DNA of 50,863 nt from the NCBI GenBank assembly GCA_030066085.1, contig JASJCI010000031.1, positions 103,626 to 154,488 of the forward strand, given 5' to 3'. The stretch comes from Gammaproteobacteria bacterium (GTDB lineage: Bacteria; Pseudomonadota; Gammaproteobacteria; GCA-001735895). Of this stretch, positions 34,027 through 42,799 are shown in pieces; position 1 is the first letter of the stretch, and the number at the start of each line of letters is the position of its first letter. Under the pieces are notes generated by a model that saw nothing but the letters and a program-made list of their open reading frames with translations, did no database searches and was not told the origin of the DNA. Both the position numbers and the translations under genes were made by a program.

Positions 34027-36192
34027 CTAATCGCGTGGCGGAAGCCCCGTGTGCTGGGTCAGGATCCGGCCCTTGCGCAGCCGCCCGCGGTCGCTGTTCT
34101 TGCGTCGCGGGCTGTGATACGGCTTCGTACCGCGCGGTTGATGCGTCGGAATCAGCTGATGCTTGCCGTTACCGATGAGGTCTTCACGCCCCATGCGTTT
34201 GAGCGCATCGCGCAGCATGGGCCAGTTGGCCGGGTCGTGATAACGTAAAAAAGCCTTGTGCAGGCGGCGCTGTTTTTCACCCTTTGGAATGGCCACGCTC
34301 TCGCTGTCCCGGCGCACGCGCTTGAGCGGGTTTTTGCCACTGTGGTACATCGCGGTTGCGGTTGCCATCGGCGACGGGTAAAAGTTCTGTACCTGGTCCG
34401 CGCGAAACCCGTTGCGCTTCAGCCACAGCGCCAGCTGCATCATGTCTTCGTCCGTGGTACCGGGATGCGCGGCGATGAAATAGGGAATCAGGTACTGTTC
34501 CTTGCCAGCCTTGCGCGAAAACCTGTCGAACAGCGCCTTGAATCGATCGTAGCTGCCCATGCCGGGTTTCATCATTTTCGATAACGGGCCGGTCTCGGTA
34601 TGTTCGGGCGCGATCTTCAGGTAACCGCCGACGTGGTGGGTCACCAGTTCCTCGACGTAGGCCGGCGATTCGACCGCGAGATCGTAACGCAATCCCGAGC
34701 TGATCAGGATCTTCTTGACGCCATCGACGTCGCGCGCGGCGCGGTAGAGTTCGATCAAGGCCGAGTGGTCGGTGTTCAGGTTTTCGCAGATGCCGGGAAA
34801 GACGCAGGACGGCCGGCGACAGGCAGTCTCTATCGCCTTCGACCTGCAGGCGATACGGTACATGTTTGCGGTCGGCCCGCCGAGATCGGAAATGACGCCG
34901 GTGAAGCCGGGCACACGGTCGCGAATCAGCTCGATTTCGCGCAGGATGGACTCCTGCGACCGGTTTTGAATGATGCGCCCCTCGTGTTCGGTGATCGAAC
35001 AGAAGGTGCAGCCACCGAAACAGCCGCGCATGATGTTGATCGAAAAGCGGATCATTTCATACGCCGGTATGCGCGCATCACCGTAGGCGGGGTGGGGCAC
35101 GCGCGCATAGTCGAAGCCGAACACGTAGTCCATCTCCTCGGTCGAGAGCGGGATCGCGGGCGGGTTGTACCAGACTTTGCGCCCGCCCTGGTTTTGCACC
35201 AGCGCGCGCGCGTTGCCGGGGTTGGTCTCGAGGTGTAGCACCCGGCTCGCATGCGCATACAGCACGGGATCGCGTTTTACCTGATCGAAGGCCGGCAGGC
35301 GCACCACGGTTTTGAGGCGTTTGCTCAGTTTTTGCTGCACCTTTGCCAGCTTGCCCGCGAGTTTGACCTCGGCATTTGGCGCCGTGTCCGTATCGGGATC
35401 CTCCGGGCACACGGACTCGTCGATGATCTGGTAGGGATTCAGCGGCTGCTCGACGCGGCCGGGCTTGTCGACGTTGGTCGAATCGATCACGCTCCAGTCG
35501 GCAGGCAGATCGTCGACAAAAAACGCGCTGCCGCGCACGTCGGTTATGTCGCCGATGACTTCGCCGGCGGCGAGCCGGTGGGCAACTTCGACCAGCGCGC
35601 GCTCGGCGTTGCCGAACAGCAGCAGGTCGGCCTTGGAGTCGGCCAGGATCGAGCGGCGCACCTTGTCCTGCCAGTAATCGTAATGCGCGATGCGGCGCAG
35701 GGAGGCCTCGATGCCGCCGAGCACTATGGGCACGTCGCGATAAGCCTCCCGGCAACGCTGCGCGTAGACGATGGAGCAGCGGTCCGGGCGCTTGCCGCCG
35801 ATATCGCCCGGTGTATAGGCATCGTCGCTGCGAACCTTGCGATCCGCCGTGTAGCGGTTGATCATCGAGTCCATGTTGCCCGCGGTGACACCGAAGAACA
35901 GGTTCGGTTTGCCGAGTGCGCGAAACGGGTCGGCCGACTGCCAGTCCGGCTGCGCGATGATGCCGACGCGAAATCCCTGCGCTTCCAGCAGGCGACCGAC
36001 GATGGCCATGCCGAAGCTCGGGTGATCGACATAAGCGTCGCCGGTCACGATGATCACGTCGCAGGAATCCCAGCCGAGTTGATCCATCTCGGCGCGGGAC
36101 ATCGGCAGGAACGGCGCCGTACCGAAGCACTCCGCCCAGTACAGCGGGTACTGGTTCAGCGGCCTCGGCTTGTTTGACAGTTCGATTTGCAT
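34027..36192 (-). CDS. ygiQ: YgiQ-family radical SAM protein
   Basis: 721 residues. The radical SAM cluster motif C-x3-C-x2-C is in [12 protein letters not shown] at about residues 377-384. The N-terminal domain ([19 protein letters not shown], quoted in part) and C-terminal DUF3362-like tail are those of YgiQ. The C-terminus ends in a basic, disordered stretch ([17 protein letters not shown]). The reaction is not established. It is the last conserved gene before the cassette array, which starts about 250 bp upstream of its start codon on the other strand. Confidence 0.93.
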
Positions 36193-36443
36193 GGCATCTG
36201 GCTCCAGGCTGGGGATTCTACCGAAGCCGCGCGCAAATGTATCCGCAGCGCCCGCGGTATTTTGTCAGCTATCGATAGCGGGCATATGCGATGCTTCTAG
36301 CTGTTTTTCGCCGAAAATCAGTCAATTTCGTCGAGGATAGACCCAAAAACCCGGATTAAGGGCCTCGTTTGCACTGTGATTCCCGAACGAATTAGACTGC
36401 AACCCTAAAACCAGGGTAAAAGACGGCTGCCGTCCATATCACT
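36193..36443 (+). promoter_or_regulatory. Intergenic region upstream of the cassette array, possible promoter
   Basis: 251 bp between ygiQ and cassette 1. A sigma-70-like arrangement TTGTCA (36262-36267), 17 bp, TATGCG (36285-36290) points into the array. The spacer contains the perfect 12-bp palindrome GCTATCGATAGC (36268-36279). A small inverted repeat GACGG-CTG-CCGTC occurs at 36422-36434. No attI site could be defined and no open frame here looks real. Promoter function is inference. Confidence 0.35.
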
Positions 36444-36459
36444 GCTAGGAAGAAACACC

Positions 36460-36750
36460 ATGCGTCAACTCAGATCTGAAATATCGGAAAAATTGGATGG
36501 CGCACCTAAAATTTGCATCATTAGTTTTTGGGTGACAATCATTGCTCTTATTTCCGCCACAGTTGGGGCGTCACTACTAATCATAGGTGGCTTTGAGATT
36601 GGGAGGGCAATAGCACTCATAAGCATTCCAATTGGATCACTTAGCATCTTTGTGGGACTTGGTGGAGTTATTTATAAGTCGTACGAAGACCGAGAAAATT
36701 TAAAGGCATATAGAAAAAGATATGAGAATCCAAGGCAACCGTGGGAATAA
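36460..36750 (+). CDS. Cassette 1: small membrane protein
   Basis: 96 residues, not recognised. Two hydrophobic segments (IISFWVTIIALISATVGASL and IALISIPIGSLSIFVGLGG, about residues 19-70) lie between a charged N-terminus and a basic/acidic tail (SYEDRENLKAYRKRYENP). Predicted inner-membrane hairpin with both ends in the cytoplasm. The ribosome binding site AGGA (36447-36450) is part of the presumed recombination box. Much AT-richer than ygiQ. Confidence 0.75.
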   Translation: MRQLRSEISEKLDGAPKICIISFWVTIIALISATVGASLLIIGGFEIGRAIALISIPIGSLSIFVGLGGVIYKSYEDRENLKAYRKRYENPRQPWE

Positions 36751-36756
36751 TGTTTC

Positions 36757-36829
36757 TCCTAACAAGCGCATGCAGCCGGACCGCCAGCCGGCTACGCCGT
36801 CTGTCGGCCGCTGATGCTGGACGTTAGGC
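36757..36829 (+). repeat. attC site 1
   Basis: R'' TCCTAAC (36757-36763) and R' GTTAGGC (36823-36829), with AACAAGCGCATGCAG and GCTGATGCTGGACG as inner boxes. The arms between form an imperfect GC-rich hairpin with one unpaired base between the GCAT and CAG parts, the usual strand-selection feature. Confidence 0.87.
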
Positions 36830-36836
36830 GCAACAG

Positions 36837-37310
36837 GTGAGGAGCATATCAATAGTTCTGTTTTTGGCATTGGCGCTACTATCTTGTAATCAAATTCATC
36901 CGTGGGAAGAATTTGAGAAGTACCCCAATGCACTTAACTTTGAAATACGCGAACTAGGGAACGGAACTGCGAACCAGGCAAGCTTCTATATCGAAGAAGC
37001 CTATCCGTTCGATGGGGTCATTGAGCACTATAGGAATCAAGCTGGCCCAAACTGGAAGCCATGTCCATCCGATGAAAATTGGCGGAGTTATGTCGACTCA
37101 ACAACTGGAAAGCAAATTCTTGTACATGAACTTAAAAAATACTGGGCAAACCACAAAGTATCACGGCTTTTGATACTGGCAGTCTCGTATCGATCAGTGG
37201 AGTTCGAAAACATGAGTGAACCAAATACAAAAAAGCAAGACGTGTTTTTGATCGAGTATCGAGAAAGAAACCTGGACTCAGCACTAAAAAGGCTAAAACT
37301 TGATTGTTAA
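36837..37310 (+). CDS. Cassette 2: predicted lipoprotein
   Basis: 157 residues. GTG start only 13 bp after the cassette junction, so almost no leader. Signal sequence RSISIVLFLALALLSC with lipobox LLSC (Cys about residue 17). The mature protein is acidic and soluble-looking (PWEEFEKYPNALNFEIREL; YPFDGVIEHYRNQAGPNWKPC, each quoted in part). No family recognised. Ends 18 bp before the next attC. Confidence 0.72.
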   Translation: MRSISIVLFLALALLSCNQIHPWEEFEKYPNALNFEIRELGNGTANQASFYIEEAYPFDGVIEHYRNQAGPNWKPCPSDENWRSYVDSTTGKQILVHELKKYWANHKVSRLLILAVSYRSVEFENMSEPNTKKQDVFLIEYRERNLDSALKRLKLDC

Positions 37311-37328
37311 GTCAGAACCTTCGTTTGC

Positions 37329-37403
37329 GCCTAACAAGCTCAGGCAGTCCGACCTCACAAGTCGCTGCGCGCCTTGCGAGACCGCTGATGCTGGACGTTA
37401 GAA
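37329..37403 (+). repeat. attC site 2
   Basis: R'' GCCTAAC is the exact complement of attC 1 R' (GTTAGGC). Its own R' is GTTAGAA (37397-37403). Inner boxes AACAAGCTCAGGC and GCTGATGCTGGACG. Confidence 0.88.
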
Positions 37404-37408
37404 GCAAA

Positions 37409-37792
37409 ATGAAAACCCTCGTCTTCATTTTTTTGGCAATAACCTCCGATACAGTCTTTGCATGTACCCCATTTCACTTTGATTACGGTCACGCGACTTA
37501 TGTGTACCTCGGGCAAATTGAAAAGATAGACCGTCCGTGGTACCACTGGATTCAAAGAAAAACAAAAGTTCAAATCCATTTTGGGATAAAAAAGTATTGG
37601 AAGGGCGATCCCAAACAACACATAGTGCAAAAAACTGAAGGGACTTTCGGTAACTGTGGCACTACATCATATGAAGAAGGAGAACAGTATGTAGTTTTCT
37701 CTGTACCCGTTATAGATTCGGAATGGATTGTTCTGCGAACATATACCCGTGGCTATGGCGCAATTCTCGACGAAATATATAAAACACAATAA
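37409..37792 (+). CDS. Cassette 3: secreted TIMP/NTR-like protein
   Basis: 127 residues. ATG 37409 lies 5 bp past the attC R' box. A signal peptide is cleaved before CTPFHFDYG (cut near VFA-C, residue 18). The layout N-terminal Cys, YVYLGQI strand, KYWKG, then FGNCGTTSYEEGEQYVVFSV is that of the netrin/TIMP-like (NTR) barrel, where an exposed N-terminal Cys and a C-G-x-x-[FY]-x-x-G-x-x-Y block are typical. Function of bacterial NTR-like proteins is poorly known. Call is by motif only. Confidence 0.7.
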   Translation: MKTLVFIFLAITSDTVFACTPFHFDYGHATYVYLGQIEKIDRPWYHWIQRKTKVQIHFGIKKYWKGDPKQHIVQKTEGTFGNCGTTSYEEGEQYVVFSVPVIDSEWIVLRTYTRGYGAILDEIYKTQ

Positions 37793-37795
37793 TGC

Positions 37796-37870
37796 TTCTA
37801 ACAAGCGCATGCAGACGAACCGCTCCATGCGCTACGCGCTTTCCGCGGCCGCTGATGCAGGACGTTAGAT
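37796..37870 (+). repeat. attC site 3
   Basis: R'' TTCTAAC is the exact complement of attC 2 R' (GTTAGAA). R' is GTTAGAT (37864-37870). Inner boxes AACAAGCGCATGCAGACG and GCTGATGCAGGACG. Confidence 0.9.
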
Positions 37871-38354
37871 GTCACTAGAAATCATCGCAGATCCAAAAAC
37901 GAGATACTGGATATCAACTGGACTGGTTATTACCTTTTTCCACTATTCGACATACCTCTGGCCATTACTTTTTGACGACGCTGTAATAACTCGCCTGCAA
38001 GACAGCCCTGAATTCCTCGAGGGCATGCGAATTCACCTGGCCTTTTTTATTGCAATTTCCACAGTCGCGATTCTATTTGCATTCAAACAATTCAAGTATT
38101 GGCGAGTGGCAACGCTATTGGTTTGCTTACTCGGAATATACAACGGCGAAACAGTAGACGTATTTCATTACTGGTTTAAAGATATAGATTCTTTCGAGCA
38201 GTTATCCTCCAGGTGGGAATCGCATAGTAAATATCCTTGGCTTATGGCCGCGGGTTTTCGAAATGGTATATTCATACCACTTCTATATTTGGCAGTAGTA
38301 TTTCTGACCATTAAAGACTTGAATCTAAGAAAAAATGGCAGAGGTGACATCTAA
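37869..38354 (+). CDS. Cassette 4: membrane protein whose start and stop lie in attC boxes
   Basis: 161 residues, not recognised, with four hydrophobic segments (TGLVITFFHYSTYLWPLLF, HLAFFIAISTVAILFAF, VATLLVCLLGIYNG, FIPLLYLAVVFLTI). The ATG (37869-37871) overlaps the R' box GTTAGAT and the TAA stop (38352-38354) is inside the next R'' box ATCTAAC, so coding sequence fills the entire cassette. There is no room for a leader; translation would need read-through coupling or leaderless start. Confidence 0.75.
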   Translation: MSLEIIADPKTRYWISTGLVITFFHYSTYLWPLLFDDAVITRLQDSPEFLEGMRIHLAFFIAISTVAILFAFKQFKYWRVATLLVCLLGIYNGETVDVFHYWFKDIDSFEQLSSRWESHSKYPWLMAAGFRNGIFIPLLYLAVVFLTIKDLNLRKNGRGDI

Positions 38355-38421
38355 CGAGCGCATGTAGACGGACCGCCAGCCGGCTGCGCCGTCTGGCGGC
38401 CGCTGATGCGAGGCGTCAGAG
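38349..38421 (+). repeat. attC site 4
   Basis: R'' ATCTAAC matches the complement of attC 3 R' GTTAGAT, and the match extends to 10 bases (GACATCTAAC). R' is GTCAGAG, one change from the consensus. Inner boxes GAGCGCATGTAGACGG and GCTGATGCGAGGC. Confidence 0.86.
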
Positions 38422-38438
38422 TGAACAAAGGTTCCAAA

Positions 38439-38807
38439 ATGAAAACAATAGAACAAACCAGCCTTGTGCTCCTGTCAACGACATTTGTAGTTGTAGCTTT
38501 CGCACTAGGGATGATTTTCCTGAGCGACTACCTCATACACCCGCCTCTCTTTATTGAACCCCCCGAATTACAGGAATACTCAGCTGTAAAACTGCTAAAT
38601 GAGTCAACTAATTTCGAACAGTTAAAAAAGACCTGTTCCATCTGGGCAGAAAGAGACGACGAAAACAGGAAGTTTCTCAATGACATGAATGACCGGATAA
38701 ATTCATCCTTGCAGGGTCTTGCCATCGGTGTCTTATGGTTTTGTGTTTTTGTTGGCGCAGGATTAATCTACATAAACGTCATTGCCAGGCGAATGTCTCG
38801 TGTTTGA
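38439..38807 (+). CDS. Cassette 5: small two-span membrane protein
   Basis: 122 residues from MKTIEQTSL. Transmembrane segments at about 8-31 and 95-118 flank an extracytoplasmic loop of about 60 residues with a charged helical stretch (FEQLKKTCSIWAERDDENRKF, quoted in part). ATG 38439 is chosen because AAAGG sits 7 bp upstream; an in-frame GTG at 38421 is within the attC box. No family recognised. Confidence 0.72.
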   Translation: MKTIEQTSLVLLSTTFVVVAFALGMIFLSDYLIHPPLFIEPPELQEYSAVKLLNESTNFEQLKKTCSIWAERDDENRKFLNDMNDRINSSLQGLAIGVLWFCVFVGAGLIYINVIARRMSRV

Positions 38808-38816
38808 TTCCGCTCA

Positions 38817-38891
38817 ATCCAACAAGCGCATGCGGCCGGGCCATGTCACTCGCCACGCGAGGGAAATGGCCGCTGATGCGAAGCGTTGTGT
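38817..38891 (+). repeat. attC site 5
   Basis: R'' ATCCAAC and R' GTTGTGT (38885-38891). Inner boxes AACAAGCGCATGCGGCC and GCTGATGCGAAGC. R'' does not match attC 4 R', suggesting mutation or cassette loss at that junction. Confidence 0.78.
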
Positions 38892-38921
38892 TTCAAGCAA
38901 CTTGATATCCGGTAACCAGGC

Positions 38922-39377
38922 ATGAGTCTTTCATTCAAAAAAGCCGAGCCGTCTGACCTGCCGGTACTAATGCGCTTCATGCAGGAATTTCATGAGTTCG
39001 ATCACGACGATCCATTTGATGAGGTTCCAGCGAAGAGGGCTATGGAAAAAGTGATCTCGGATGAACGAGCCGGATTTGTATGGTTAATCAAATCCTCTGG
39101 CGAAGATGTTGGTTACTTGGTGTTAACGCTGCATTACAGACTTGAGTCGCGAGGCACATGCGCTAACCTGGACGAGCTTTTTATAAACGAGGAAAATCGT
39201 GGCCAGGGAATTGGCCGCAAAGCAATGAAATTTCTCGAGAACACTTGCAGGGAGCGCGGCGTTGCCGCCATGCAATTAGAGGTGAAAAAGGATAATCCCG
39301 AGGCTGCTTCCTTGTATGAGAAAGTGGGGTTCGAAAAACTTGATCGTGATTTCATGCTAAAGGATATTGCCACATAA
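38922..39377 (+). CDS. Cassette 6: GNAT-family N-acetyltransferase
   Basis: 151 residues. Acetyl-CoA-binding motif A: NEENRGQGIGRKAMKFLE (R/Q-x-x-G-x-G). Motif B: DNPEAASLYEKVGFEKL. Substrate unknown; such cassettes are common in integron arrays and sometimes act on amines or antibiotics. The TAA stop at 39375-39377 overlaps the attC R'' box. Confidence 0.9.
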   Translation: MSLSFKKAEPSDLPVLMRFMQEFHEFDHDDPFDEVPAKRAMEKVISDERAGFVWLIKSSGEDVGYLVLTLHYRLESRGTCANLDELFINEENRGQGIGRKAMKFLENTCRERGVAAMQLEVKKDNPEAASLYEKVGFEKLDRDFMLKDIAT

Positions 39378-39446
39378 CAAGCGCATGCAGCTGTACCTCA
39401 CCAATTGCTACGCACCTTGTGAGGCCGCTTACGCTGGACGGCAAGC
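39372..39446 (+). repeat. attC site 6
   Basis: R'' ACATAAC differs by one base from the complement of attC 5 R' (GTTGTGT). The right end is decayed: GGCAAGC (39440-39446) instead of GTTRRRY. Inner boxes AACAAGCGCATGCAGC and CCGCTTACGCTGGACG. Confidence 0.78.
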
Positions 39447-39524
39447 AGCACAATACGTCGAGATCGAGATTTCTAGCGCTAACATTTATCGCTGTAGCTC
39501 CGCGGAAGTCCACGGGAGGGTAGC

Positions 39525-39959
39525 TTGAAACAGATCGGGATAGATAAAGCATCAAGTGTCGCCTGCTTCTCGGTTCGTGCCATCGTGTTGGCCTTTTTCC
39601 TTGTATCCCCGCAAGCCAATGCAACTGGCATTATGCTGCCAGACATGGGGCTGGACGAGGCCTTTTTAGTTATCTTCGGGTCCTTTTCGGTGGCATTGGT
39701 GTTTTGGGCAGCCATAAGATTTACTCCTTTTTGGAGAGCAAGACTAAAACTGAACTCTGGCCTGGCGTTACTGGCGAAAATCAATCCACCCCTTCTCGCA
39801 ATCGTTGTCATAGCTTCAGGGTTTTTCTTTTTGTCGGATTCCTGGCTACTGCTGATTCCCATGTTTTTGGGAGCGCCGCTTGCGGTGCTCGGAATCCTCA
39901 TTGAATTGATTTGGGGTTTAGTGATTAAACCCACCGATCAGGAGGACTTGCCCAGATAA
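39525..39959 (+). CDS. Cassette 7: membrane protein with TTG start
   Basis: 144 residues. The TTG at 39525 follows a strong ribosome binding site (GGGAGGG, 39514-39520), and no ATG fits. An N-terminal signal or first membrane segment (VRAIVLAFFLVSPQANA) is followed by segments near FLVIFGSFSVALVFWAAI, LLAIVVIASGFFFLS and WLLLIPMFLGAPLAVLGILI. Not recognised. Confidence 0.72.
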   Translation: MKQIGIDKASSVACFSVRAIVLAFFLVSPQANATGIMLPDMGLDEAFLVIFGSFSVALVFWAAIRFTPFWRARLKLNSGLALLAKINPPLLAIVVIASGFFFLSDSWLLLIPMFLGAPLAVLGILIELIWGLVIKPTDQEDLPR

Positions 39960-40167
39960 AGCAGAAAACAGGGGGGGGCGAAAAACGGGCGAAACGGATC
40001 ACAAGCATTCGACGTTGCGGATCATGCCCGGGAATCAGTACCCTCTTGGCGTGCCAAAACCAATACCGTTGGACATGGCAGTCCTTCTGTCTCCAATCCA
40101 ATTTGGGGTAAGGTTTTTGTGCGCAACCTGTATGATTGCCGGGCTTGTCGAATACAGGCAAATTGGA
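39960..40167. other. Non-coding tail of cassette 7
   Basis: 208 bp after the membrane-protein stop and before attC 7. It starts with a G8 homopolymer (39971-39979 region) and contains GACGTTGCGG (40011-40020), which resembles the right end of an attC. It may be the remnant of another cassette or of a lost gene. I see no convincing open frame. Confidence 0.45.
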
Positions 40168-40230
40168 GCCTGACAAGTGCGTGCAGACGGACGTGGCCTT
40201 TGGCCACGCCGCTTATGCGAGGCGTTATGC
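40168..40230 (+). repeat. attC site 7
   Basis: Short site (63 bp): R'' GCCTGAC, R' GTTATGC (40224-40230). Inner boxes ACAAGTGCGTGCAGACGG and GCTTATGCGAGGC, with a hairpin of CGTGGCC and GGCCACG. Confidence 0.83.
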
Positions 40231-40272
40231 GGCAACACCGCGTAGATTCTGATCCCCAGGAGAACCTGGAAC

Positions 40273-41022
40273 ATGCCAAACAATCGAGTCGCAATACTGA
40301 CGGGAACCGGCCAGGGTATTGGCGCTGGCTGTGCTCGTGAAATGGCCAAAGCCGGCTACAAGGTTTCGCTGATGTCGCCATCTGATCGCAGTGTAAAACT
40401 GGCTAAAGAATTGGGTGGTATTGGGCGTGCCGGCTCGGTACTTGAAGTTGATGACCTGCAGGCGCTCGTCGATAGCACCATGGAGAAATACGGGAGAATT
40501 GATGCCGTTATCAGCAATATGGGACACGGCGGCAGTGTTCCGGAGGAAATTAAAACCGTTGGTTTCGATCCGGACTTCGACGGACCTTTGCTCGAACTGA
40601 GCGACGAGCTATGGCATGAAAGCCTCGATATGTATGTATTGAACGTGGTAAAGCTCGCTCGTATTGTCACGCCAATCATGATCGATCAAAACGGAGGGGC
40701 CTTCGTCAATATCTCTTCCATGAATGCAATCGAGCCGAGGGCGCCTTACCCGATGAGTATGCTTCGGGCCACCTTGCACAGTTTTTCCAAGCTTTACGGA
40801 GATCGATACGCCAGGCACAACATTCGGATGAACAATCTATTACCCGGGTTTTGCGAAAACGTGAACCTGTCCGAATTTGCCAGGAAGTCTATTCCTGCGC
40901 AGCGGCCAGCTACTTTTGCAGAAATCGGGCAAACGTGTGTGTTCCTGGCGTCTGACGAAGCCAGATATATCACCGGCCAGAGTATTTTGTCTGACGGCGG
41001 CATGAATCGGGCAGTTCGGTAA
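40273..41022 (+). CDS. Cassette 8: SDR-family protein without the catalytic lysine
   Basis: 249 residues with a classical SDR fold: TGTGQGIGAG (cofactor loop, about 10-19), VNISSM (catalytic-Ser region), NNLLPGF and SILSDGG at the end. The active-site tyrosine region reads Y159-PMS-M163: the lysine of Y-x3-K is replaced by methionine. The downstream context RATLHSFSKLYGDRYA is like a divergent SDR subgroup I remember with FPxS-x-x-RA in place of Y-x-x-x-K, so this may be a natural variant rather than decay. Activity as a reductase is uncertain. Confidence 0.85.
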   Translation: MPNNRVAILTGTGQGIGAGCAREMAKAGYKVSLMSPSDRSVKLAKELGGIGRAGSVLEVDDLQALVDSTMEKYGRIDAVISNMGHGGSVPEEIKTVGFDPDFDGPLLELSDELWHESLDMYVLNVVKLARIVTPIMIDQNGGAFVNISSMNAIEPRAPYPMSMLRATLHSFSKLYGDRYARHNIRMNNLLPGFCENVNLSEFARKSIPAQRPATFAEIGQTCVFLASDEARYITGQSILSDGGMNRAVR

Positions 41023-41034
41023 AATCATCATGCC

Positions 41035-41109
41035 GCATAACAAGTGCGCGCAGCCGGACCCTGCAAGACGCTGCGCGGCTTGTCAGGCCGTTGCTTCCAG
41101 GCGCCAGGC
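41035..41109 (+). repeat. attC site 8
   Basis: R'' GCATAAC is the exact complement of attC 7 R', and the match continues to 10 bases (GCCGCATAAC). The right end is degenerate; GCCAGGC (41103-41109) is the best candidate for a mutated GTTAGGC. Inner box AACAAGTGCGCGCAGCCGG. Confidence 0.7.
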
Positions 41110-41133
41110 GTTTTTCAATTTGGAGACGATTCG

Positions 41134-41466
41134 ATGATAAAAAGAATTTGGCACGGATGGACGACTCCTGAAAATGCGGATATTTATCAGCAACTGCTCC
41201 ATGACCATGTCTTCCCGGGCATCGAAGCAAAAGGTATTCCGGGTCACCGGAGTATCGAGCTTCTGCGCAGGGAGCATGAAGCCGAGGTCGAGTTCGTCGT
41301 TATCATGGCCTTTGACTCACTGCAAAACGTGATCGATTTCCAGGGCCAGGATTATGCTCGAGCTTATATTCCTGAAGAGGCGCGGAAAGTGCTTGAACGA
41401 TGGGATGAACATGCCTCTCATTACGAAATCAAAGAACTGAGAAAGTATGACCGAATTGATCCCTGA
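41134..41466 (+). CDS. Cassette 9: small ABM-like (dimeric alpha/beta barrel) protein
   Basis: 110 residues from MIKRIWHGWT. The pattern of strand, helix with paired residues (PENADIYQQLLHDHVFPGIE, in part), strand (HRSIELLRREHEAEVEFVVIMAFDS, in part) and final AYIPEEARKVLERWDEHASHYEI fits antibiotic-biosynthesis-monooxygenase-like small dimeric proteins. Catalytic function cannot be read from the sequence. The stop TGA overlaps the next R'' box. Confidence 0.78.
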   Translation: MIKRIWHGWTTPENADIYQQLLHDHVFPGIEAKGIPGHRSIELLRREHEAEVEFVVIMAFDSLQNVIDFQGQDYARAYIPEEARKVLERWDEHASHYEIKELRKYDRIDP

Positions 41467-41532
41467 CAGACGCATGACGGCGGATCGAAAGCGGCGACGC
41501 CGTCTTTCGTCCGCTGATGCCGGGCGTTAGAA
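41461..41532 (+). repeat. attC site 9
   Basis: R'' CCCTGAC, R' GTTAGAA (41526-41532). Inner boxes GACAGACGCATGACGGCGG and CCGCTGATGCCGGGC; hairpin arms GACGGCGGATCGAAAG and CTTTCGTCCGC. Confidence 0.82.
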
Positions 41533-41614
41533 GTTGAGAGGCATTTCCCAATGCACAGCTGCTGATTTATGATTTAAAAATTACCAACAAAAAAATACAA
41601 AACAGGAGGAGGCC

Positions 41615-41977
41615 GTGGCGAAATTATTAATCCATGTAACAACAGCACCTGAAGATCCTACCAAGGCGGCTTTGTCGTTTCTTGTCGCGAAAACAGCCCT
41701 GGCCGAAGGTCATGAAGTAAACCTGTTTCTCGCGGGAGAATCCGTAAGACTTCTTGATGCGGAAACGCTGGAATCTTTGCAGGGACTGGGGACCGGTAAT
41801 CTCAAGGAACACTACGACGCTATTGTAGAAAATGGCGGGCAGTTTTACTTGTCTGGCATGTCGGCAAAAGCAAGAGGCTATGACGAGTCATTGATAGACG
41901 GAAAACCGGCCCGGTTTGCAATGCCTGATATGCTGGTAAAGCTTTTGACCGAGTCCGACAGGTCACTGACCTACTAA
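41615..41977 (+). CDS. Cassette 10: DsrE/DsrF-like protein
   Basis: 120 residues. GTG start behind the strong ribosome binding site AGGAGGAGG. The alpha/beta pattern KLLIHVTTAPEDPTKAALSF, then EVNLFLAGESVRLL is that of the DsrE/F sulfur-relay or peroxiredoxin-like family. There is no Cys in the protein, so a thiol-transfer role is unlikely for this member. The leader of about 80 bp before the start is AT-rich and contains ATTTATGATTTAAAAATTA. Confidence 0.8.
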   Translation: MAKLLIHVTTAPEDPTKAALSFLVAKTALAEGHEVNLFLAGESVRLLDAETLESLQGLGTGNLKEHYDAIVENGGQFYLSGMSAKARGYDESLIDGKPARFAMPDMLVKLLTESDRSLTY

Positions 41978-41995
41978 ACTGGCGGACGAGTCACC

Positions 41996-42054
41996 CGTTT
42001 ACAAGCGCATCAAGCGGACCCGGGGCACCAGCTCCCTGATGCGAGGCATTAGCA
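41996..42054 (+). repeat. attC site 10
   Basis: 59 bp: CGTTTAC at the left is a mutated R'' and ATTAGCA at the right is GTTAGCA with one change. Inner boxes ACAAGCGCATCAAGCGG and CCTGATGCGAGGC. Confidence 0.7.
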
Positions 42055-42089
42055 ATCAATAGCGCACCATACATAAAAGGCTACCCGTT

Positions 42090-42734
42090 ATGTACCAACT
42101 ATTCTATATGCCGGCGCGTGCCAGCCTTGCCCCGCACATCGTTTTGCAGGAACTACAGCTCCCTTACGAACTGAAGCTGGTCGATTTTTCCGAGGGCGGC
42201 CAATCCGACCCTGAATTTCTCGCCATAAACCCGAATGGCCGCGTACCTGCACTGGTGTGGGACGGATTCCCGATGTATGAATCCGCTGCCATTACCATGT
42301 ATCTGGCTGATAAACAACAGGACCCCAGGCTCGCCCCGGATCTACAGGATAAAAACAGGCCCCTCTATTATCAATGGATGAGCTACCTGTCCACCACGAT
42401 TCAGGAAACGTTGAATCAATGGTTTCATCCTGATGAGTTCATCGTTGATGAAGGTCCGCATGCCGAGTTCAGGAAATATGCTGAGCAGCGACTGGAAAAA
42501 ATGTGGCGGGTGGCACACGAAACGCTTTCCGGATCCGAATACTTGCTCGGGGAAAAATTTTCTGCATGCGACGCCTATATGTTCATGCTTTTGTGCTGGC
42601 AATACGAGCTGCCCTTTACTCCAGAAAAATGGCCTGTGATCGACTCCTATTTCTGGAAAATCAGGAGGAGGCCTTCGGTGGTTCGTACCCTCGAGGCGGA
42701 AGGCGTTCCGGAATGGTGGAGTGATAAACTTTGA
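42090..42734 (+). CDS. Cassette 11: glutathione S-transferase
   Basis: 214 residues. Thioredoxin-like N-terminal domain (MYQLFYMPARASLAPHIVL; NPNGRVPALVWDG; YESAAITMYLAD, the glutathione-binding E-S-x-A). Helical C-terminal domain with the N-capping motif FSACDAYMFML. Detoxification of electrophiles or peroxides by conjugation to glutathione is the likely role. It follows attC 10 by 35 bp. Confidence 0.93.
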   Translation: MYQLFYMPARASLAPHIVLQELQLPYELKLVDFSEGGQSDPEFLAINPNGRVPALVWDGFPMYESAAITMYLADKQQDPRLAPDLQDKNRPLYYQWMSYLSTTIQETLNQWFHPDEFIVDEGPHAEFRKYAEQRLEKMWRVAHETLSGSEYLLGEKFSACDAYMFMLLCWQYELPFTPEKWPVIDSYFWKIRRRPSVVRTLEAEGVPEWWSDKL

Positions 42735-42799
42735 TGCCTGACAGGAAGCCCGACGATCCCGGCTATTACGAGGCTGCATGCAGACGCTGAGGGGTAAAC
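42735..42799 (+). repeat. Possible decayed attC site 11 at the right edge
   Basis: TGCCTGAC (42735-42742) is close to the complement of attC 10's right end (TGCTAAC expected), followed by AGGAAGCCCG and a later CTGCATGCAGACGCTGAGG. No clear R' box remains. It marks the likely end of the array. Confidence 0.3.

Follow-up and report, generated by a model that had tools for sequence, protein, structure and literature searches.

How could an array of integron cassettes be assembled beside ygiQ, at a place where no integron integrase gene (intI) is found? The question is raised by a stretch of 50,863 nucleotides from a gammaproteobacterium (hereafter the window), namely positions 103,626 to 154,488 of contig JASJCI010000031.1 in assembly GCA_030066085.1, a draft of 85 contigs in which the window lies on the contig abbreviated here as C44. 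Integrons are usually described as consisting of one integrase and one adjoining attI. The window array contains ten attC sites, all on the plus strand between 36755 and 42058 and each preceded by one plus-strand gene, and it is headed at 36393-36451 by a site that resembles an attI. From the sequence comparisons presented below, we consider it probable (about 0.58) that this is an attI-headed array without intI in cis, the cassettes of which entered at the attI, probably by means of a distant integrase (IntI) acting in trans.

The window array and its attI-like head

Since a covariance model built from the ten window attC sites is circular for those same ten (all E ≤ 2e-11, the next window match having E 0.38), we built a profile from 28 attC sites lying outside the window. 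This profile recovered 10/10 sites, nine with E ≤ 2.8e-9 and the tenth with E 0.018, the best other window match being at E 0.18. Both results bear out an earlier interpretation of the window made from its letters alone (the sequence-only reading), which had recognised ten attC-like sites in one orientation, with one plus-strand gene before each, and had proposed that at least eight should score with an attC covariance model. In integrons, the R'' box of each attC is complementary to the 5' end of the cassette that bears it, and the window cassettes match their own box at a mean of 6.90 of nine positions, compared with 4.93 for non-cognate pairs (permutation p 2e-5; perfect in 4/10); their ends are of the kind made by integron integrases. 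RNAalifold found 8 pairs only in the ten sites, covariation at attC pairs was not above that of shuffles, and no Rfam family matched the window at gathering scores; attC is identified here by sequence, by complementarity of the boxes and by order, without support from covariation. Across the whole genome, where the scoring covered 150 of 8544 first-look candidates, the attC model gave 27 matches with E ≤ 0.01, which fall in four clusters (12 on contig C40, 10 in the window, 3 on C37 and 2 on C57) and are not seen throughout the genome outside cassettes.

The sequence-only reading had reported neither intI nor attI in the window. The first point was upheld: the best tblastn match to the IntI of C40 had E 2.5, and no trace of intI was detected in the window, including the 200 bases between ygiQ and the attI-like site. 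The second was contradicted by the plus-strand site at 36393-36451, which contains an inverted repeat (GACGG..CCGTC, equivalent to ACAG..CTGT in the attI of C40) and a crossover G at 36444, the very coordinate from which the array had been counted. Its core triplet, at 36444-36446, is GCT in place of the GTT of C40 and C57; GNT is the conserved motif for IntI1 in the available text of PMC10127599. A scan for consensus promoters at the array head gave no match.

The relationship of this head to genuine integron sites was evaluated with a model of type A attI, R2 (E ≤ 0.05), trained on five sites that include those of C40 and C57 and exclude the window. The window head scored 25.3 bits, with E 0.0066 over the genome and 2.4e-4 over 13 loci. 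In direct alignments over 71 bp it reached a score of 28 with the C57 head (shuffled maximum 19) and 18 with the C40 attI (shuffled maximum 17), none of 5000 shuffles being as good in either comparison. The C57 head and the C40 attI scored 38 with each other (shuffled maximum 17). The best match to the C57 head in the window is the position of the attI-like head itself. Compared with a complete integron, the window array has an attI at its head, recognised by homology to an intI-linked attI and by the inverted repeat, and lacks intI in cis.

The search for intI through the whole genome, suggested in the sequence-only reading, led to an integron integrase of 483 residues on C40 (C40:16928-18379; L003 1405-2856), which scores 432 bits with TIGR02249 (cut-off 265). 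Its residues 160-465 (306 residues) align with 2a3v, an integron integrase of solved structure, and all of the motifs that we take to be catalytic (arginine, lysine, HxxR, histidine and tyrosine) are present. The two further tyrosine recombinases found in the genome are XerC-like and XerD-like. C40 carries a complete integron, with divergent intI, attI and 13 attC sites at E ≤ 0.01 (L004, L005), whereas the array of C57 has no detectable intI and starts with a cassette that agrees with its R'' box at 9/9 positions. The head of C37 was rejected as a type A attI (960 and 2234 of 5000 shuffles equalled its scores) and matches instead an integrase-less head of a relative, G020:C7 (score 36, shuffled maximum 16), from which neither of our attI models was built. 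All four arrays of the genome start with an attI-like head, three being of one type, and intI lies beside that of C40 only.

The integrase of C40 has an N-terminus with about 150 extra residues, for which no Pfam match was found at E ≤ 0.01. This long form is shared, for instance with Thiocapsa imhoffii, since 9/14 related loci from named genomes match from a point within the first 26 residues; two places in the gammaproteobacterial assembly OB6 (L213 10001-10276 and L214 5099-5313) match the N-terminal extension alone.

The order of the cassettes carries a further signal. The farther a window attC site lies from the head, the lower its score with the independent profile (rho -0.93), and the fraction of guanine plus cytosine is 0.43-0.48 in cassettes 1-6 and rises to 0.49-0.53 in cassettes 7-10 (rho 0.78, p 0.008), towards the 0.62 of the sequence outside the array. 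The attC score declines likewise along the C40 array (13 sites, rho -0.74). The fall in score and the rise in base composition are as expected for entry at the head with older cassettes decaying.

In the sequence of events that we propose, the cassettes would have been inserted successively at the window attI, and the IntI encoded on C40 would most likely have acted in trans on the attI copies of C40, C57 and C44, each of which would have built its own array. A very different origin would be the landing of cassettes at a chance chromosomal site (attG) through off-target activity of IntI, the likeness to attI being incidental; such insertion is a described phenomenon (reported second-hand in the available parts of PMC12444791 and PMC12901181). 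We consider this origin very improbable on account of the homology to the C57 head, which spans about 60 bases and includes the inverted repeat, and of the 17-bp core pattern covering the heads of C40, C57 and the window, which (with one mismatch allowed) matches these three heads and nothing else in the 4.39 Mb of the genome, the reversed control giving no match. It is also opposed by the attI sites of a second type (type B, considered in the next section) which, predicted from intI-linked attI alone, recur at the heads of integrase-less arrays.

Even less credible is an artefact of assembly or binning that would have joined the array to the ygiQ region or brought in arrays of a foreign organism. 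The assembly is indeed in 85 contigs, and many attI matches of the relatives lie near contig ends; the window array, however, is enclosed by other genes on both sides within a contig of 154 kb, and the adjacent ygiQ is 78-89% identical to homologues in the genus. The tetranucleotide composition of the C40, C44 and C57 flanks correlates at 0.967-0.984, versus 0.845-0.950 with three stretches from the same genus and 0.777-0.802 with one from another genus. Moreover, the C44 head differs from the other heads at many positions and therefore is not a shared repeat.

attI sites across the genus and beyond

In all, 31 genomes of the genus were searched with R2 and with R3 (E ≤ 0.01), the model of type B attI found in the relatives, which was trained solely on eight intI-adjacent sites. 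R2 produced 12 matches in 8 genomes, five being its training sites, and R3 39 matches in 21 genomes, eight being training sites and none lying in the genome of the window; the combined set comprises 51 attI matches, including 13 training sites. At least two matches are present in 14/31 genomes, with five apiece in G001, G002 and G023, where one attI is linked to intI and the other four have no detectable intI (one of these four in G001 has hardly any upstream sequence). An intI above the cut-off was found 14 times in 13 genomes, twice in G042 and once in each of the others.

When sorted by the intI upstream of them, the 51 matches comprise 10 with a long intI (that of G001 has an in-frame TAG and that of G019 covers positions 1-281 of 315), 5 with an N-terminal stub, 1 whose intI is interrupted by the end of the contig, and 35 with none, absence being called by tblastn at E ≤ 0.01 over up to 2200 bases, of which fewer than 350 were available for 4/35. 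The stubs lie at G007:C187, G039:C2, G042:C177, G016:C137 and, weakly (E 0.002), G007:C196; because they remain at 5/51 matches, the attI copies may have arisen most readily when a whole integron was copied or acquired and its intI was later lost. In a separate relative (L105 5855-6612, G045:C1), an array adjoins an intI that survives in pieces.

Among the 22/35 integrase-less sites that have at least 850 bases upstream and at least 1000 downstream, 17 are succeeded within 3 kb on the same strand by attC (14) or by half an attC alone (3). The half-site test was positive downstream of 27/51 matches, compared with 3/51 upstream and 0/51 on the reverse strand as controls. At the 17 integrase-less heads the end of the first cassette matches its own R'' box at 7.65 of nine positions, versus 5.87 for mismatched pairs (p 1e-5), and perfectly in 8/17; at intI-linked heads the match is perfect in 5/5. 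At four loci (L178, L182, L184 and L175) an integrase-less attI is followed by one gene and then by the first half of an attC only, as would result from loss of its second half.

Type B sites contain, ahead of the core, an inverted repeat that is preserved via paired changes, for example TAAAAGGT/ACCTTTTA, TAGAAGGC/GCCTTCTA and TAAGAGGC/GCCTCTTA. In 37/39 type B matches (G017:C272 and G042:C177 were left out), the mean number of pairs, of eight possible, is 7.62 at the 8 intI-linked sites, 7.38 at the 13 integrase-less sites whose genomes have intI elsewhere and 6.69 at 16 sites in genomes without intI over the cut-off, the shuffles giving 4.41. This upkeep at integrase-less copies is suggestive, not proof, of maintenance. 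Separately, L172 (3387-4577) and L173 (3329-4700) have directly at the attI core genes that by eye look like those of IS91-type elements, a tyrosine recombinase followed by a zinc-finger transposase; the core reads GTTGAAC at both, as it does at L017 and L183. Rolling-circle elements could be a means of copying attI.

Across the class, R2 with stricter filters found matches in 12 of 274 genomes, ten of which lie outside the genus. The 17 matches of these ten divide into 3 with a long intI, 3 with a fragment (at one of them, G087:C15, the intI beside attI has its middle missing) and 11 with none; such fragments fit the loss of intI as one route to an integrase-less attI. Four of the 17, G087:C15, G078:C53, G111:C36 and G214:C45, have weak attC matches (E ≤ 0.0021) after them on the same strand. 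The nearly complete genome G154, from another genus, has four R2 matches (L225-L228) near which we found neither intI nor attC with R1, the attC model derived from the window, which may miss foreign sites; these could represent unoccupied sites, chance matches or the heads of divergent arrays.

The intI remnants also support the main rival to our interpretation, according to which the array was built in cis by an intI that once lay between ygiQ and attI and whose deletion left attI and cassettes as a static remnant. It is consistent with the stubs beside attI at five genus sites (one of them weak), with the intI of G087:C15 that lacks its middle and with the altered core (GCT) of the window attI. 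We regard it as unlikely, considering that neither the 200 bases separating ygiQ from attI nor the rest of the window retains a trace of intI, that the same arrangement occurs on C57 with a well-conserved attI and a perfect cassette junction, and that the ygiQ flanks examined in relatives revealed no array. For the last point, 20 flanks were fetched from the 26 other genomes with ygiQ (18/20 of at least 4.2 kb, two of only about 0.7 kb, one with a run of N), and neither an array nor an attI was recognised in them, a single weak attC match (20.9 bits) being distant from ygiQ. The gene with a HIT domain downstream of the array was discarded as a synteny marker, being present in only one other of the 31 genomes.

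Several observations weigh against insertion in trans at a working attI. The window site is the most diverged of the three in its genome (25.3 bits compared with 80.6 and 72.3 for the other two, which are training sites), the end of cassette 1 matches at only 6/9 positions and the site is absent from the class-wide R2 list at E ≤ 0.001; the window attI may be dead. In the genus, 5/22 integrase-less sites with sufficient flanks have no attC after them (G010:C187, G039:C1, G021:C230, G004:C19 and G045:C7). The difference between 7.38 and 6.69 repeat pairs has only p 0.06, and the model score differs in parallel (p 0.012), a comparison confounded by the use of the genomes with intI for training. 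Finally, the intI stubs elsewhere fit loss in cis equally with service in trans.

With these reservations, the comparison of the 31 genomes indicates that the window array is best called part of a multi-attI pattern in the genus. The sequence-only reading retains its value in describing an assembled array beside ygiQ without intI in cis, and has to be amended for the attI-like head. A broader proposal, which we advance tentatively, is that of a distributed integron, in which one intI might serve scattered attI platforms, the copies would multiply and be retained by selection, and many integrase-less arrays could be live satellites instead of debris or products of off-target insertion.

Cassettes, cargo and neighbouring genes

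The gene to the left of the array, ygiQ, occupies 34027-36192 on the minus strand (open reading frame [ORF] of 721 residues) and has the homologues of 78-89% identity mentioned above in 26 other genomes of the genus. The array follows on the plus strand. Its first five cassettes encode proteins without Pfam match: cassette 1 (36445-36823; ORF 36460-36750, 96 residues; attC 36755-36833), cassette 2 (36824-37397; ORF 36837-37310, 157 residues; attC 37327-37407), cassette 3 (37398-37864; ORF 37409-37792, 127 residues; attC 37794-37874), cassette 4 (37865-38415; ORF 37869-38354, 161 residues; attC 38347-38425) and cassette 5 (38416-38885; ORF 38439-38807, 122 residues; attC 38815-38895). Cassette 6 (38886-39440; attC 39370-39450) encodes a GNAT acetyltransferase at 38922-39377 (PF00583, 65.4 bits), the protein being 84.8% identical to that of a C40 cassette. 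Cassette 7 (39441-40224; ORF 39525-39959, 144 residues; attC 40166-40234) is again without Pfam match, and is followed by cassette 8 (40225-41103; attC 41033-41112) with a short-chain dehydrogenase at 40273-41022 (PF13561, 129.9 bits), cassette 9 (41104-41526; ORF 41134-41466, 110 residues; attC 41459-41535) with a weak ABM-like match (PF03992, 17.7 bits, below the cut-off of 23.1) and cassette 10 (41527-42048; attC 41994-42058) with a DsrE-like protein at 41615-41977 (PF02635, 51.5 bits).

Past the last recognisable attC there is a glutathione S-transferase gene at 42090-42734, plus strand (PF02798, 55.6 bits), downstream of which the attC model gave no match; it is possibly an eleventh cassette with a decayed attC. 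With 6/10 cassette proteins lacking a Pfam match, the cargo is largely uncharacterised, as had been stated beforehand; the label 'TIMP-like' given to one protein found no Pfam match at E ≤ 0.01, and nothing in the window cargo indicates by itself a new function. Cassette arrays of this genome also contain gene pairs that by eye resemble the toxin-antitoxin systems BrnT/BrnA and HicA/HicB (L007 4980-5530 and L005 420-840).

Relation to known integron systems

Integrase-less arrays are common and usually read as decayed, and the scatter of their positions, as in Xanthomonas, is poorly explained. Should they bear attI copies in the way the window array does, one could test where they came from and whether they may still be growing, and a search that considers only attC and intI would overlook a part of the platform; the extra attI of G001, G002 and G023 would multiply the landing places for captured genes. 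We searched the literature, with partial coverage of subscription papers, and did not find multiple attI copies heading integrase-less arrays described, an absence that is weakly supported.

In the accessible portion of the paper on IntegronFinder 2.0 (PMC9024848), a cluster of attC sites without integron integrase is called CALIN and usually read as a degraded integron, while attI is considered poorly described outside class 1, where it is not detected, and is treated as single and beside intI. The label CALIN, already applied in the sequence-only reading, suits the window array, which has at least two attC sites (10/10 with the independent profile) in a neighbourhood without intI. It shares with such clusters several attC and the lack of intI in cis, but retains an attI-like head of the genome's intI-linked kind. 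CALINs are already well known, and the attI copy, more than the cargo, is the notable feature here.

IntI reportedly can also insert cassettes away from its integron, at attG sites that are said to be unlike attI. The window array shares with these insertions the distance from the integron and differs from them in its attI-like head. In Xanthomonas, CALINs occur at seven loci apart from ilvD/intI and are mobilisable in trans by IntI, according to the sections available of PMC12444791; they are likewise dispersed with intI elsewhere, and those sections place no attI at them. A different displacement of attI is that of the delta-attI cassettes of mobile integrons, in which attI lies away from intI and is used by IntI1; as far as PMC12901181 was available, pieces of attI there replace attC at the 3' end of cassettes within an array, whereas the window site stands at the head of an array with a locus of its own. 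Attention must be paid to the statement, in the consulted part of PMC10127599, that attI-like sites are frequent in genomes, which weighs against taking every resemblance as a true attI. With the chromosomal integron, lastly, the window array shares the attI head, the single orientation of its cassettes and the decay of attC away from the head, and it differs in having its intI on another contig.

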